Part shown: positions 24,293-33,196 of the stretch, piece after piece
Numbering within the stretch: position 1 is the first letter of the stretch
Layout of the letters: the number at the start of each line of letters is the position of its first letter
Source: Capsaspora owczarzaki ATCC 30864
Taxonomy: Eukaryota > Opisthokonta > Filasterea
Assembly (NCBI RefSeq): GCF_000151315.2
Contig: NW_011887302.1
Coordinates: 1 to 64,000 of the forward strand
DNA: 64,000 nt
Direction of reading: 5' to 3'
Notes under the pieces: model-generated
The model's database searches: none
Seen by the model: the letters and a program-made list of their open reading frames with translations, nothing else
What the model was told of the DNA's origin: nothing
Position numbers and translations under genes: made by a program

Positions 24293-26930
24293 TTACACGC
24301 CAGTGCTGGTCGTGATGGGGAAGCGCAAAGTTCGGCGAGCCTTGACTGCGTTGTCGTTGGTGCAGCATGTGTTGGCGCTGCAATCATCCACACCATCAGC
24401 AGCACTGCAGTCGAGCAAGCATGCCTTTTCGTCATCCACCGCGTACTGGAATGCAAAAGAGCAAATGCAAACGCAAAAAGCAAAAAGAAAAAAAATTAGC
24501 AACAATCGTTTTTAGACCAGCAGCACACCACAGCAACAACAGCCTCAGACGATTACTGACAGAATTTTGAACATGCTCGAGTTGAACGGTGGTAGAATGG
24601 ATACCAAAGCGGTGGAAGAAGCCTTTGATTTGCGAAACAATGGCCAAACTGTCCTCCGCGTCCGAAGTGATGTGGACGGTGGCAATCAGATTGCCTTCGG
24701 AAAGCTCCCAAACGTGAAGCTCGTGAACGTCCACAACACCGGCCAGCTGCACAAGGCTGCTCTTGATGGTTTCGACGTTGACAGTGCTCGGGACGCTCTG
24801 GAGCAGAATCATGGACGATTGCTTGACGAGAGGAATCGAGTGGCTGAGCAGCAAGCAGGCAATGAACAAACTAAAGGCGAGACACCAAAGTGGCAGAGCA
24901 AAAATCAATGAACGTCAGCATCCATATGAAGGAGAAAGCAATGGAAAACTCGTCGTTCGTTCTTTTTTTTTGTTTGGTTTTGTTTTTTCTAAACGCAGAA
25001 CTGCCAACACTCACCTGAGGGCGGGGTCAATATAAACCTTGCCGTCAAAGTCCGCAAACTCGAAAACGAGGGCACTGATGACGACGGCGACGGAACCGAG
25101 AGCGTCTGCCGCAATATGAAGGAAAACGCCGCGCATGTTGAGCGAGCCTCCGTGGCTGTGGCCATGTCCGCCTGAGGGTGCGGATGCGGCAGCGGCGTGG
25201 CCGTGGCCATGACCGTGAGCGTGACCGTGTCCATCGTCTACACACAACAGAGTGTTGCATGTGAGCTCAAACAGCGCCCCAAACGACAAAAAAAGCGCAA
25301 AACAAAACAAAAGCGCATACCAGCAACGACGGGCACCTCGGTGACTTGTCGAGAGTTGAAAATGCCCGCTTGAAGCTCGGTGGAAGAGGTCGTTTCGGTT
25401 GGGGGTGCAACCTCGCTGCCGCCGCCGTGGGAGTGGCCGTGGCCAGCGTGATCTGAAGGGGGGGGGGCGTTAGAGACCACATTTGTACGGCAAGCCGCTA
25501 TCATTGTGGCAATGCAACAGCAAGCGGGGTGTTGTGGCACTTACTGTGGAAGAGCATCATGCCAATGAGGTTGATGAACAGACCAGCCGAACCAACGTAC
25601 AGCACCAACCTCGGGTCTTCAATTTCTGTGGACAGAAACGTGTGTGAGCTTTGGATGCAACAACAGCAGTGATGGCATTTCTTCAACCCCGCTTTCTCGC
25701 TTTATCGTGCAGTGGTGATTGTAATTTGTTGGTTTTTTTACCTTCAGGCGAAAAGAAGCGAGTAATCGAATCGACAAAGATGGAGAAGCACAGGGCAATC
25801 AAAAAGACGCCGTTGATGAGTGCGCCCAGGACTTCTGCGCGGACCCAGCCGAAGGTGTTCTTGGACGAGAGCGTGTGCTTGGCAATCTGAGGAGATGAGC
25901 ATCGACACAAAACGGTTTTGGATTTTGGGTTTGGGTTTGGGGGGTGAGTGTGTCATAGAACCAGAACAGCTCGGAAGCAGGAGGAGTGCTATTTCTCTCT
26001 TGCATGGCATGATCAAAATGCCATCAGGCGCTCAGACGAGATCAGATCGGAATGGAGACCTTTTTAATGACTCGGAGTGGTGCAACCACAACCACACCTC
26101 CGACGCTGAGCATGGGCAGGCAGGCACCCGACGTTCGCACACCGCTGCACCCCAGCTGCACCCCCGCCTCGTTTCATCACCTGCACAAAACCCAACAGCA
26201 CTGAAAGCGAGTTGCTGCTTTTGTTGATTCTTGTTCATCCCGACGAGGATCCTTTCAAGTGGGTCTCCGAAACCACTCCGAGTGAATGAAGCTGGGGCAC
26301 ACCCCACAGCGTTGGCACCCCACATTGCCCCCTTCCGACTCGACAACTTGGTCGCAAAACACAGCCAGAAGAGCCCCACCCAGCCACATTGCCAAGCTGA
26401 GGCACTCGAAGTGGTTGAGTGGCAGAGAGGAGAGCAGGAGCGCTTGGCGTGGGGCTGTCGGAGTTCGGTCGCATTGGAGGTTTCGTCCGCAGCCAGCTCG
26501 CCCCGCGCCCTTGGAGCGGCCGCCTGCCGATGCATTGGTTGTGCCATCCATGCATCTGTTTGCTTTCAACCAAGCCAGCAAGCGAGCAGAGTGCAAACTG
26601 CTCAAAGCGCGCGCCTTCTTGGCTGCTTTCGCCTTCGCTCTCTCCGTCATGCATTTCCACTCAACCCGAGCACCAACCCAACCCAAACCCCCAGCCTGGT
26701 CGAGTAGAATCACCCATCAACTGTGGCTTTTTTCACATTGCCACAAACCACGGCCTTACGCGGATGGCAAAGAGGCCGACGAGCAGCGAGAGGACGTCCG
26801 AGAGCATGTGGAACGAGTCGGCAATCAGCGCCACAGAGTTGGTCATGTTGCCCACAACGAGCTCCACGACAAAGAACGACAGTGTCAGCGACAGCGTAAT
26901 CGACAGTCGCACAGTCCGATTGCTCGACAT
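24293..26930 (-). CDS. CDF/SLC30-type zinc transporter, 404 aa
   Basis: CDF proteins move zinc out of the cytosol by proton exchange. Seven exons (26930-26760, 25886-25742, 25625-25545, 25452-25321, 25237-25015, 24870-24561, 24445-24293) join with exact phases. Both metal-site signatures are present: ADSFHMLSD in helix 2 and HIAADALGS in helix 5 (HxxxD each). Between helices 4 and 5 lies a His-rich loop (HAGHGHSHGGG, then GHGHAHGHGHGH), as in ZnT1 and fungal Zrc1/Cot1. The cytoplasmic domain has the usual LVDVHELHVWEL-type core (here AGVVDVHELHVWEL) and ends with a short Cys-rich tail. The length and single long His loop fit the ZnT1/ZRC1 group. Intron 1 is unusually long (873 bp). The gene is convergent with the EF-hand gene, 124 bp away, and follows a His/Glu-rich membrane protein on the same strand. 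Confidence 0.93.
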
Positions 26931-27341
26931 GGTAAAACAAAAAACAAAAAAATAGAGTGAAAATTGGCTGAATGTGAGAAAGACAGCTGAAAAAAAAAAG
27001 GTAGACTGAGAGTGCCAAGCGGCTCAGAAAAACAAAAACTAATCCCGAGTGTACTGTAATAGACAGTATAAAATAGATGAAGGATGCACACGCTTCGTGC
27101 CCAGATTGAGAAATGCTCTCTCCGCAGTTCTGCATCCATTTCTGTACAGTATCCCTCACAAGTTGCCCGGATTGCATCGCTCCTTCCGTAAAACGGTACA
27201 TCAGCGGTTCCAAATAAACCCAAACAATATTATTAACAACGACACAATCTAAGTCACACAGATCGTTGGAACAAAACTGCTACACGAAACCGAATGCACA
27301 CAGCCCCAAAACATGTTAACGGACGGCGGAAGCCAAGCGAT
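26931..27341. other. Spacer upstream of the zinc transporter
   Basis: About 410 bases between the His/Glu-rich gene and the zinc transporter on the same strand. It must hold the transporter promoter. I see no exon and no metal-response core (TGCRCNC) that I would report. Confidence 0.4.
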
Positions 27342-28635: not shown

Positions 28636-31275
28636 ATGTCCGACATTCCCGGCTTTGTGACGACAGACCGCGATCAGGTGAGTGTGTGTCTGACTGTTGT
28701 TGTTGCGTGTCTATTTGTATGAGAGTGAGTGTGTGAGTGAGTGTGTGAGTGAGTGTGTGAGTGAGTGTGTGAGTGAGTGTGTGAGTCGATGTGTGTGGGC
28801 ATCTCTCTCCCAAAACACAAGCTTCATGCGAACGAGAGTTGCTGTCCCTCTGCTGGGGCTGCTGCTGCTGCTGATGATGATGATGATGTGCCACTGCAAT
28901 GCATCAACACATGGATTGGCACGTACAAGAGTGAGTGAGTGAGAGAGAGAGAGAGAGAGAGACAGAGACAGAGAGAGACAGAGAGAGAGAGAGAGAGACA
29001 ACCAAGACCGAGACAACCAAACAATAACAAGGTTTAGCCTGTGAGCATCCCACTCTCAGTCAATCCTCTTCACTCCAGCCACTCACAATCCGCACTCAGT
29101 GGGATGATGCATGGATGATTGAATGCAACGTGAATTCACCGCCCAGTCACCTTCACCTTCAGCACTTTGCAAAGAAAAAAATACGCCCTGTTCTCAGCCT
29201 TTCTCAGCCTTTCTCAGCCTGTTCTCAGCCTTTCTCAGTCTTTCTCAGCCTTTTGCTTGAATGCCTGCTGACTGATTGTTTTTTGGTTGTTTGTTGTTGC
29301 TGAATGTGCTCAGGCCTTGCAGCTATTGAGAGCATACATCCAGTATGACGGCGCCTTCCTTGTTCGACTCAGCGAGAGCGCTGCCGGATTCTACTCGATC
29401 GGTGTCACGTAAGCCCTTTGTTGCTCAGAATTGTTTCTCATCTTGGCTCGAAACGTCCCTCCTTCACTCAGTGTTGCTCATTGTTTTTTGCTCGTGCTTT
29501 GCCGGGTTCTGGGTGCCTCCTTCAGCTCAAAGGGCGCAATCAAGCACTTTAAGGTTCAGCTTGACGAACAGCGGCAAGTGTACATTGCCAAGAAAAAGTT
29601 TGCGTCCGTGCGCGAGCTTGTGCTCCACTACATGCAGAGTCCGATTCGCTCAAACCAGTTCGACGACCCCATCATGCTGAAAATCCCAATATTCAATCCG
29701 GACGTGTCCGTCCAGCCTCACTTGGCCTTCCCGGAGCCCGTTCCGTCGGCGGTTCCACATCATCGCAGCAGCCCATATCCGCTGCCAGAGGTGCCACCCC
29801 CAGTTCCCAGCAGAAACGTGCGAGGATCAGTGATCGCCGAGAGACCAGCCATGGCCCCCGAGCGACATTTCGTGGCCGAACGACCAGAGCCTATTCCAAG
29901 ACCGGTTGTTTCCGACCGACCAGAGCCAATTCAAAGACCGGTTGTTGCCGAACGACGTGAACCGGTTCAAAGACCCGGGGTTGTTGCCGAACGACCACCA
30001 GAGCCAGTCCAACGACCAGTTGTTGTCGAGCAGCCAGTTGCAGCACCGCGGCCTGCGGTGGCACCACGACCTGCGGCATCGCGGCGACCAATAGTGGCAG
30101 AGCAGCAGCCGAGGCAGCAATCTCCATTGTTAGCAGTCCCCGAACGACCCGCGCCAACGTCCGGCTCCAGGAGTCCCCTTCCAAACATTCCTCGAGTCAG
30201 CATGCAAGTCCTGGCCCAGGTAACGAGCAATTTTGCAGACACCAAGAAAATCGGGGGAGGCGGCTTTGGCAGCGTCTACTCTGGTGTCTGGTGTGGTCAA
30301 CACGTTGCCGTCAAACGGTTGGCTGCAGAATCGGCGCAGGGCGTCGCTCAGTTCGAGGCCGAGCTCGAGGCTCTATCTCGCTTCCGTCACCCAAATATCG
30401 TCACCGTCATGTGCTACACAGTGGAAGGCAACGAGCGCTGCCTGGGCCTCGAGCTCATGGTCAATGGCTCGGTTCGCGACCGCCTCGACCGCAAAAACAA
30501 CAGCCCCCCGCTGAGTTGGCGCCATCGGCAAAAGATTGCAACGGAAACTGCGAGCGCGATGCACTTTGTCCAGACTGCGGTTGAGGGTCAGCCTCTTTTC
30601 CACCTGGACCTCAAAACGGCCAACATTCTGCTGGACGAAAACTTTAAAGCCAAGGTCGCTGACTTTGGCCTGACGCGCCAGGCACCGACTCCGATCGATG
30701 CGCATAGCTACATCCGCGCAGACTCTGTTCAAGGAACCCTCCAGTACATTTGCCCCCAGTATCGCGACGAAGGCAAGGTGTCCATCAAGACGGACGTGTA
30801 CTCTTTCGGAATGATTCTGCTTGAGCTGCTGACTGCGGCAAAACCCTGTCTCGACCTGATTGGCTCGTTCAATCGGGAGCTTCGCAAAAAGCACAAACCC
30901 GACGCGTTGCTTGATACCGCGATTGATTGGAGTGTTGCGGACAAGCAAGCGGCGCTTGTCGTGGCCGAGCTGGCGGCGGATTGTCTCGAACTGGCTCGCG
31001 TAGATCGGCCCACGTTTTTGGAAGCCGTGCAGCGATTGTGTGGCGAGCAGGTTGCTCAAGACGCGCACGGCGACAATCATGCTCCCGAACGGGATCGCGA
31101 GTGCTTGATTTGTGCGGATGCTCCCACCACGGCCAAGCTCCTCCCATGCCGGCACGCTTGCGTCTGTGTAGAGTGTGCGCAGATGCTCTTATCGAACGGG
31201 CCCGTCTGTCCCGTTTGCCGGGGCGCGATTGCAAGCTTTGATCAAGGTGAATTTGATCAAACTTTTGTCCGGTGA
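28636..31275 (+). CDS. SH2 - Pro-rich repeat - TKL-like kinase - RING protein, 628 aa
   Basis: Three exons (28636-28677, 29314-29408, 29526-31275) join with exact phases. Residues about 10-100 form an SH2 domain, with the phosphotyrosine-binding FLVR motif in GAFLVRLSES, then GAIKHFKV and SVRELVLHY. Residues about 120-265 are Pro/Arg/Val-rich, with a tandem RPEPIxRPVV-type repeat and possible SH3 ligands (VPPPVPSR). Residues about 280-545 are a kinase: Gly loop GGGGFGSVYSG, Lys309 in VAVKRL, catalytic segment HLDLKTANILL (Asp407), DFG at 425. The catalytic loop lacks the usual Arg (HLD instead of HRD) and the APE motif is replaced (YICPQY). Overall similarity is to TKL/IRAK-type kinases, so Ser/Thr specificity is likely. 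A C3HC4 RING of the IAP/MAPL type ends the protein (CLICADAPTTAKLLPCRHAC then CPVCRG). The architecture suggests a kinase that binds phosphotyrosine and ubiquitinates its targets or itself. Confidence 0.9.
28721..28786. repeat. 12-bp tandem repeat in intron 1 of the SH2-kinase gene
   Basis: About five copies of the unit GTGTGAGTGAGT. Each unit resembles a GTGAGT splice donor and the array begins about 45 bp after the true donor of exon 1. Confidence 0.88.
29190..29252. repeat. TTCTCAGCCT-type tandem repeat in intron 1
   Basis: Six imperfect copies of a 10-11 bp unit CTTTCTCAGC. Each contains a pyrimidine tract followed by CAG, so each resembles an acceptor, about 60 bp before the real acceptor of exon 2. 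Confidence 0.85.
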
Positions 31276-31411: not shown

Positions 31412-31563
31412 TTGGATTGGTTTTTGTATGGCAATGGCTACTTCTCTTTTCCTTCCTTTTCAACCACGGCGTTTCCACCCAGCGACTCGTCTTCTTTGTC
31501 TTTTTCTGCTGCCGCCGCTGCCAGTAACGCAGCATCGGGCCTTCTTGCATCGTACGGAGCCAG

Positions 31564-31611
<48 letters not shown>

Positions 31612-31765
31612 CTTTGAGTCGCGGTTTTCGTCGAGGGGCAGCAGTTACACCAACCTGCCGCTCCTCGCCGCCTCGTCATTATCGGCATCATCATCATCAT
31701 CATCGCCCACTCCAGGACCCCAGCAGTATCAGCAACAGCATCAACAGAGCGGCGGCAGTGGCGGA
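31276..31765. other. Region between the SH2-kinase and CERT genes
   Basis: The frame of CERT stays open upstream through all of this stretch, encoding poly-Asp (from GAT repeats at 31380-31409) and a Gly-Ala repeat (31562-31611, unit GGAGCA), but has no ATG. It may contain the 5' untranslated region, or part of a longer CERT N-terminus reached from an upstream exon after the CCAG acceptor near 31334. Confidence 0.4.
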
Positions 31766-33196
31766 ATGTCGGCGTCTCCAACCGCGTCAATGTACTCGCT
31801 CTCGGCGTCGACCAGCACGACGACCGCCACCACGACGCTGCATCCAAACAACCACCTCACTCTGGGCGACGGCAGCAGCAGCAGCAGCATCAGCAGCAGC
31901 GGCGGTGGTGGTGGTGGTGTCGGTGCGCGGCACTCTGGCTCCTACTACACTGCGACCTCGTCACCGTCGCAGCACCCTCAGAACGCCCTCCTCCACCCCT
32001 CAGGCTCGGGCTCAGGCTCGGTCTCAGGCTCAAGTGCAGCGATGCAAGGGCTTAACGCAGGCTCTGGCGTGGCTCACCAACAGCATCAGCAGCAGCAGCA
32101 GCAGCAGCAGCAGGTCAATACTGCCTCGTCACCAGCGTTCGGATTCACGCTCAACGCAAGCAACAGCCATCATCACCACACGACAAGCGCGACAAGCATG
32201 ACAAGCATGATGAGCTCGGGCAGTACACACAGCAGTAGCGGCGCCGTCAATGGCAATACAACCAGCACTGCTGCGACTGCGACTGCGACTGCGAGCGAGG
32301 CCGTCGCTGCCACTGCGGCACTCGCGTCGACCGCGGGCCTGCCTGCGCTCGAAGGGCGGATGCACAAGTGGACCAACTACCTGCATGGCTGGCAGGAACG
32401 CTACGTGCAGCTGTCGGGCGGCGTCCTGTCCTACTTCAAGTCGCAGGCGGACGTTGCGTACGGCTGCCGTGGCTCGATGAACCTGCGCGAGGCCGTCGTC
32501 CTCGTCCACCCGTACGACGAGCTCAGGTTTGACGTGGCCCTGCAGGACTCGGTCTACTACCTGCGCACACAGTCCAACGACGACCGCGAGCGCTGGGTTG
32601 AAGCCATCGAAACGTCCAAGACCACGCTCATCGAAACAATGTCCATCAGCTCGGCAGGGAGCGTCCGCAAGAAGCAGTCGGCCAAGTCGCTCGCGTTTGC
32701 AGCGTCGCTCAAGGCCAAGACGCTCAAGGAACGGCTGTCAGAGATGGAGAGCTACCGCGACATTCTCGGCAAGCAGTCCGACCAGCTGCTCTTGTACTAT
32801 GAGCAACTCCTAGCCTACCACCAGCAGCTCGCCATGGCCAGCGTCTCCAATGTTGCCCAGCTGAGCGAAGGCGACGGCCCGCTGCCCCCGCCCCCGCCAC
32901 CCCCGATCGACGAGAACGAGCTCCGCGAGGAAGTCATCACCTACAAGGCCACCTCCTCGGGCATGGTCACCGCGCTCGATGAAGTCATCCAAGAGGTCAC
33001 GAAGAAGGACGAGGAGTTTGCAAAGCGGTACGAGCACGAAGTGGAGCGACGGCGCCAAGTGGAAGTCGAGCTGGCCAATCTGCGCTCGACCAAGCGGCCC
33101 ATGCCTGCGATTCAAAACAAGCTTCCTGGGCCTGATATGGAGGAAGGTCCCCATTCGTCCCTGAAGGTAAAGCCCGAGAACGAGAGGTTTTGCGTG

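Follow-up and report, generated by a model that had tools for sequence, protein, structure and literature searches.

The first 64,000 nucleotides (nt) of contig NW_011887302.1 of Capsaspora owczarzaki ATCC 30864 (referred to here as the window; G000:C11:1-64000 of the searched genome, which comprises 27,456,641 bases in 29 contigs) contain a forward-strand gene predicted to encode a single protein with an SH2 domain, a protein kinase domain and a RING finger. The spliced model has three exons (28636-28677, 29314-29408 and 29526-31275, + strand) and specifies 628 amino acids plus a stop codon. Exon 1 provides the start codon and the N-terminal edge of the SH2 domain (MSDIPGFVTTDRDQ), including Arg12, exon 2 encodes the SH2 core with its FLVR motif (Arg32, 29365-29367), and exon 3 encodes the remainder of the SH2 domain, a linker, the kinase, the RING and a C-terminal tail that is followed by the stop codon TGA. 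Both introns are of the GT-AG type; intron 1 (28678..29313, GTGAGT...CAG) is 636 nt long and in phase 0, and intron 2 (29409..29525, GTAAGC...CAG) is 117 nt long and in phase 2. A TGA codon lies in frame 33 nt 5' of the ATG. The second half of the SH2 domain, the kinase and the RING are spanned by one uninterrupted frame (29413-31275, 620 amino acids), and splicing therefore matters only for the first half of the SH2 domain. When exon 3 was divided into 12 blocks, the G+C content at third codon positions (GC3) was 0.62-0.76 in nine of them, 0.42 in two blocks of the linker and 0.53 in the last, and the G+C content of both introns was 0.46-0.54 at all three positions. The original prediction, made from the letters of the window, had placed an SH2 domain, a kinase of the TKL group and a RING in one continuous protein. 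This is borne out by the exon model and by a Pfam search of the translated three-exon model, in which these three domains, and no others, scored above the curated cut-offs.

A genome search with the SH2 domain located close copies at two further loci, one at C1 ~3.6758 Mb (L020) and the other at C3 ~0.982 Mb (L041/L045), while the remaining SH2 matches in the genome were only 27-37% identical to the query. Each of the two copies has a homologous 42-nt exon that starts with ATG and is followed by GT, and a 95-nt exon between CAG and GTAAGC. The position of intron 2 is common to all three loci, and the third exon begins at the equivalent place in both copies, so the predicted exon layout of the window gene is supported by two homologous loci in the same genome. 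In its spliced form (560 amino acids), the C1 copy also encodes a kinase and a RING by Pfam, and the C3 copy continues into a kinase-less, proline-rich protein. The order SH2-kinase-RING had been put forward as an unfamiliar one, and L020 is a second gene of this genome with the same order. The single frame and the conserved exons together rule out a chance join of neighbouring genes. As far as DNA comparisons can confirm a predicted structure, the three-exon model appears real and an artefact unlikely.

The SH2 domain (residues 10-81, 28663..29631, split over the three exons) matched its Pfam profile with 55.2 bits (cut-off 21), and its best match in the PDB was PLC-gamma-1 (59.9 bits). Arg32, His53 and Arg12, which we take to be the phosphotyrosine-binding residues, are all present, and the assignment to the SH2 family thus draws on both the profile match and the expected residues. 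Behind it lies a proline-rich linker (29692..30201, + strand) of 170 residues, 42 of which are proline, with imperfect repeats of the RPEPIxRPVV type.

The kinase domain (residues 284-548, 30238..31032, + strand) matched the Pfam Pkinase profile with 132.4 bits (cut-off 31.7). The best 60 of 2218 PDB matches, which were grouped by name, are headed by 2qkw (147.5 bits), BAK1 (144), FERONIA (144) and BRI1 (143), with 3hgk also at the top (142-148 bits), and these are followed by SYMRK (136), IRAK1 (136) and IRAK4 (135). Entries 2qkw and 3hgk are titled Protein kinase, and we take the kinase in both to be Pto. The first match outside the RLK/IRAK group was CTR1, a Raf-like kinase, at 102.7 bits, which is about 45 bits lower. 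A profile built from 21 members of the kinase family described below gave the same picture among its best 60 rows, with BRI1 at 194.7, SYMRK at 188.9, FERONIA at 187.8 and IRAK4 at 186.9 bits, and CTR1 at 123.6, 71 bits below the best. By these match scores the kinase is of the RLK/Pelle type, plant RLK and IRAK kinases not being separated from each other. A likeness to the Shk kinases of Dictyostelium had been proposed. In Shk proteins the kinase precedes the SH2 domain, and Shk membership of the window gene is ruled out by its SH2 domain in front, the reverse of that order, and by its kinase, which the PDB and profile matches place on the RLK/Pelle/IRAK branch instead.

The residues needed for catalysis and for ATP and metal binding (Lys309, Glu325, Asp407, Asn412 and Asp425) are all in place. 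HRD is replaced by HLD (non-RD), and this holds for all 30 aligned kinases of the family. A tyrosine gatekeeper is an IRAK trait and is found in 27 of the 30 family rows, with Phe in two, but the window gene differs in having Leu at this place (Leu354). In addition, CPQ stands where APE is expected, so that Gln replaces Glu. The Death domain is a mark of animal IRAKs; Pfam found none in the window protein, and a search of the whole genome at an E value of 0.1 gave no matches, although domains split by introns could escape it.

With the window kinase as query, at least 137 matches were found in the genome. Of these, 86 kinase pieces were kept and merged into 81 kinase domains; the family counts are lower bounds, as the search scored the best candidates only. 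A RING of the zf-C3HC4_3 type lies within 315 nt downstream on the same strand in 29 of the 81 (one of these RING matches, C15:127849, falls below the Pfam cut-off), for one further kinase domain a RING match lies at a distance of 4,179 nt, and the other 51 lack one within 5 kb. The original prediction had regarded a RING behind a kinase as rare; that may be so in general, but the arrangement is frequent in this genome. The presence of the RING in the same frame was checked in 26 loci, namely the window gene, 20 of the 29 loci L010-L038 and five distant relatives (L132-L136). In 19 of 21 aligned kinase-RING rows, 291-301 residues separate the starts of kinase and RING (382 in L027 and 381 in L033), and L030 carries an additional RING, at 360 residues.

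The window RING is of the C3HC4 class (zf-C3HC4_3, residues 569-616, 31093..31236, + strand; 48.1 bits against a cut-off of 27), and it possesses all eight zinc ligands and the sequence CPVCR. Its best matches were BIRC2, MEX3C and CGRRF1 (32-33 bits) and MGRN1 (29 bits). The tail FDQGEFDQTFVR (31237..31272, + strand) ends in TFVR, 18 residues past the last zinc ligand, and places Phe626 third from the end. The motif TFVx is terminal in 19 of the 21 kinase-RING rows; one row ends in TYVA and one has no tail motif. In cIAP1, Phe616 is likewise third from the end, with about five fewer residues past the last zinc ligand than in the window protein. According to PMC6349121, this tail phenylalanine packs against the donor ubiquitin that the partner subunit holds. 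The window protein thus has what characterizes IAP-type RINGs, a C-terminal C3HC4_3 RING with an aromatic residue in the tail, from which we infer that its RING would act as a dimeric, IAP-like ligase. Between the last zinc ligands, Met replaces Pro (CMxC) in 15 of the 21 rows and Lys replaces it in one. Because CPxC is kept in the window gene (as in L019, L022, L025 and L032) where most relatives have CMxC, the window RING looks more canonical than theirs. The change to CMxC may alter the choice of the ubiquitin-conjugating enzyme (E2).

What stands in front of the kinase varies among family members. Seven of the 81 kinase domains have a COR-A domain within 4 kb upstream, and two have an SH2 domain of the window type. 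For 21 of the 29 sampled loci L010-L038, the upstream 1.5 kb contains a leucine-rich repeat (LRR) pattern of the NLR type on the sense strand; 33 antisense stretches gave no match. No such pattern was found upstream of the window gene or of L020, and the single match in the whole 64-kb window falls in a low-complexity stretch. The upstream matches extend for only a few residues before a stop codon or a change of frame, and they recur every ~160 or 315 nt, as would single-repeat exons, whose splicing to the kinase is a prediction. Five single repeats scored 15.0-23.0 bits, all below the LRR_6 cut-off of 23.4. The COR locus L027 has LRR-like repeats and a Roc domain (75.4 bits) upstream, and Sel1 repeats (140 bits) precede the kinase of the distant locus L134. 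From these arrangements we infer that the window gene may be a member of the kinase-RING group in which an SH2 domain has taken the place of the customary front end. On a wider view, which we hold tentatively as a possibility short of probable, the family could represent combinatorial intracellular sensors outside animals and plants, with LRR arrays, a ROC-COR GTPase, Sel1 repeats, coiled coils or SH2 domains set on a core of IRAK-like kinase and IAP-type RING. Such proteins would be one-chain counterparts of the relay of receptor, IRAK and ubiquitin ligase (E3) in the innate immunity of animals, set in a genome that gave no Death domain matches and belongs to an organism reported to lack TLR and IKK, and the window gene would be a member rewired to tyrosine-kinase signalling.

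Origins of the kinase-RING unit outside eukaryotes were also considered. A bacterial origin is not supported, since 436 of 532 pattern stretches from genome contigs encode a relative but none of the best 80 covers the RING; these 80 are 28-34% identical to the query, and none extends past query residue 305 of 357, the first RING Cys being residue 301. A viral origin is not supported either, since none of 96 pattern stretches in viral contigs encodes a relative.

Comparison of the window gene with L020 suggests that the SH2 and kinase parts have had different histories. Synonymous differences per site are 0.30 for the SH2 domain, 0.56 for the kinase and 0.735 for the RING, and the bootstrap interval for the kinase-minus-SH2 difference is 0.118-0.396. 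GC3 of the two parts is 0.70 and 0.67 for the window gene and 0.69 and 0.61 for L020. At synonymous sites the SH2 parts are less diverged than the kinase parts, and the common ancestor of the SH2 domains therefore seems younger. This inequality seems to point to separate capture of the SH2 domain or to gene conversion. Past its SH2 domain, L020 is homologous to the kinase-less C3 gene over 138 residues, and beyond these the end of its linker resembles that of kinase-RING relatives, L014 and L018 among them (QQTTTAPPIIPRVS); judged by this homology, the linker of L020 holds a visible junction. A tree of 30 kinase domains groups L020 with L021 (support 95/91) and shows the window kinase as a long branch, while an approximately unbiased test did not reject a clade made up of L020 and the window gene, and with it a single origin of the SH2-kinase pair (p 0.114). 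Adding the five distant kinase-RING loci gave a mostly unresolved tree with long-branch warnings, in which L020 and L021 paired with support of 88/92.

IRAK/Pelle kinases and the plant RLK/RLCK kinases are like the window kinase in domain sequence (135-147 bits), but the window protein differs from IRAK/Pelle by the SH2 domain in front, the RING behind and the lack of a Death domain. Cbl lacks a kinase; its phosphotyrosine reader is a module of 4-helix, EF-hand and SH2 domains, and it serves as the model for recruitment of a ligase to phosphotyrosine. The window protein resembles Cbl in carrying an SH2-type phosphotyrosine reader and a RING on one chain, but by Pfam it has a plain SH2 domain with a kinase between SH2 and RING, and the module of Cbl that combines with its RING is not present. 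Dictyostelium has Shk1-5, which like the window protein combine an SH2 domain with a kinase of the TKL group, as well as a Cbl orthologue and no IRAK orthologues, according to PMC1420674. The main text of that paper makes no use of the term RING. The RINGs of cIAP, XIAP and BIRC7 resemble the window RING in being of the zf-C3HC4_3 type, C-terminal and followed by an aromatic tail residue (Phe616 in cIAP1, PMC6349121). These proteins possess BIR domains, none of which was found by Pfam in the window protein. In the plant protein KEG, the RING is located in front of the kinase. Like the window protein, KEG has a RING and a kinase on one polypeptide, and it differs in having ankyrin and HERC2-like repeats (PMC5385374) and in having no SH2 domain. 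The choanoflagellate Kinase TLRs and Kinase TIRs are non-animal proteins in which a kinase is likewise joined directly to sensor domains, but they are based on LRR and TIR domains, and the passages of PMC6040629 consulted mention no RING in them; the same study found no evidence of IRAK or MyD88 in choanoflagellates and reports kinases joined to LRR and/or TIR. Capsaspora has been reported to lack homologues of TLR, IL-1R, TNFR and IKK (PMC8677719). Among the records listed by literature searches aimed at this architecture, neither the window protein nor a family of IRAK-like kinases with RINGs is mentioned, and an earlier mention elsewhere is possible.

We consider it probable, though well short of certain, that the window gene encodes a phosphotyrosine-recruited, kinase-linked RING ligase that arose by addition of an SH2 domain to a member of the kinase-RING family, as an SH2-[RLK/Pelle/IRAK-type kinase]-RING protein. 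A reader of phosphotyrosine that also ubiquitinates had been suggested earlier and is plausible from the domain content. The SH2 domain would first dock the protein on a tyrosine-phosphorylated partner. Clustering would then lead the kinase to phosphorylate itself and its neighbours, after which a dimeric IAP-type RING and its C-terminal aromatic tail would engage the E2~ubiquitin conjugate, and the RING dimer would ubiquitinate the docked partner or nearby proteins. A mechanism of this kind would combine Cbl-like recruitment with the chemistry of IRAK plus an E3 on a single chain. The functions of phosphotyrosine reader, kinase and ubiquitin ligase usually reside on separate proteins, and their presence on one predicted chain in an apparent close relative of animals would offer a small, testable system for linking tyrosine phosphorylation to ubiquitination. 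The value of the finding rests as much on the kinase-RING family, in which IRAK-like kinases are joined to RINGs at large scale in a genome with no Death domain matches, as on the window gene.

Several observations weigh against this interpretation. With Leu as the gatekeeper, Gln instead of the Glu of APE, and HLD where HRD is usual, the kinase activity may be weak or otherwise regulated. The scores of the best RING matches are modest (29-33 bits), and among the five distant kinase-RING relatives TFV is terminal in L133 alone; in L136 and L132 the TFV or TF is followed by a few more residues, and L134 and L135 have no tail motif. The ratio of nonsynonymous to synonymous substitution rates (dN/dS) between the window gene and L020 is highest for the SH2 domain (0.59, against 0.21 for the kinase and 0.17 for the RING, the RING dS of 2.9 being near saturation). 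Contacts between the domains are unreadable because the AlphaFold model of the kinase and RING is poor, with a mean predicted local distance difference test (pLDDT) of 57.9; the RING blocks reach 74-89 and 15 of the first 28 ten-residue blocks are below 50. All 50 Foldseek rows listed for this poor model are IRAK4, at TM scores of 0.36-0.37. Finally, the exon joins are predicted from DNA rather than from transcripts.

Alternatively, the kinase could provide the output and the RING could be mainly a self-limiting switch, the activated protein ubiquitinating and removing itself as has been suggested for plant KEG. The fixed spacing of kinase and RING in 19 of the 21 rows would suit a regulatory tail, but the 51 family kinase domains with no zf-C3HC4_3 within 5 kb behind them indicate that the kinase role needs no RING, and the presence of the SH2 domain suggests a recruited partner; we regard this alternative as the less likely one. 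It is still less probable that the RING serves only for dimerisation and the kinase acts as a pseudokinase or scaffold, with little catalysis of either kind. The substitutions in the window kinase are what such a protein might show, the distant relative L135 seems to combine a pseudokinase and a RING, and CMxC replaces CPxC in most of the RING rows; however, the window kinase has its ATP- and metal-binding residues, its RING has CPVCR, and the dN/dS values of the kinase and the RING are low. That the SH2 domain belongs to a separate transcript and the kinase-RING gene begins within exon 3 is very improbable, since in the window gene and in L020 alike half of the SH2 domain is read in frame with the kinase, and three loci have the same exon layout, even though the joins are predictions and the third copy of the SH2 exons leads into a kinase-less protein.

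Other observations concern the relatives of the window gene and its neighbours. COR-A domains stand in front of RLK/Pelle-type kinases of the family at L026, L027, L030, L031, L033, G000:C5:115599 and C9:851303, and five of these seven loci have a RING behind the kinase, with two tandem RINGs in L030. Arrays resembling LRR_6 occur upstream of L010-L038 and also at L049-L051, and the number of repeats could change by recombination. L029 (G000:C2:2630244-2633324, - strand) has three tandem family kinase domains in one frame of 1,101 codons. L135 (L135:140-1789, - strand) bears a RING and lacks the catalytic Asp and DFG (it has HLRLS and TNFGF), and is likely a pseudokinase-RING protein. A frame of 646 codons at L050:2-1942 (+ strand), a few kb ahead of the kinase-RING gene L010, encodes repeats rich in Ser, Ala and Val, then a hydrophobic segment and basic residues, and resembles a mucin-type membrane protein. 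The kinase-less SH2 gene L041/L045 (G000:C3 ~980,380-983,590, - strand) has a WH2 motif that scored 23.1 bits, exactly the Pfam cut-off, and an acidic end, DDDWD, which is presumably part of a VCA region; the protein looks like an SH2-fused, WASP-like activator of Arp2/3. Next to the window gene, a frame encoding a PH domain (31442-33166, 50.6 bits) lies on the same (+) strand, and a cation-efflux match (26736-27023, 40.5 bits) lies on the - strand.
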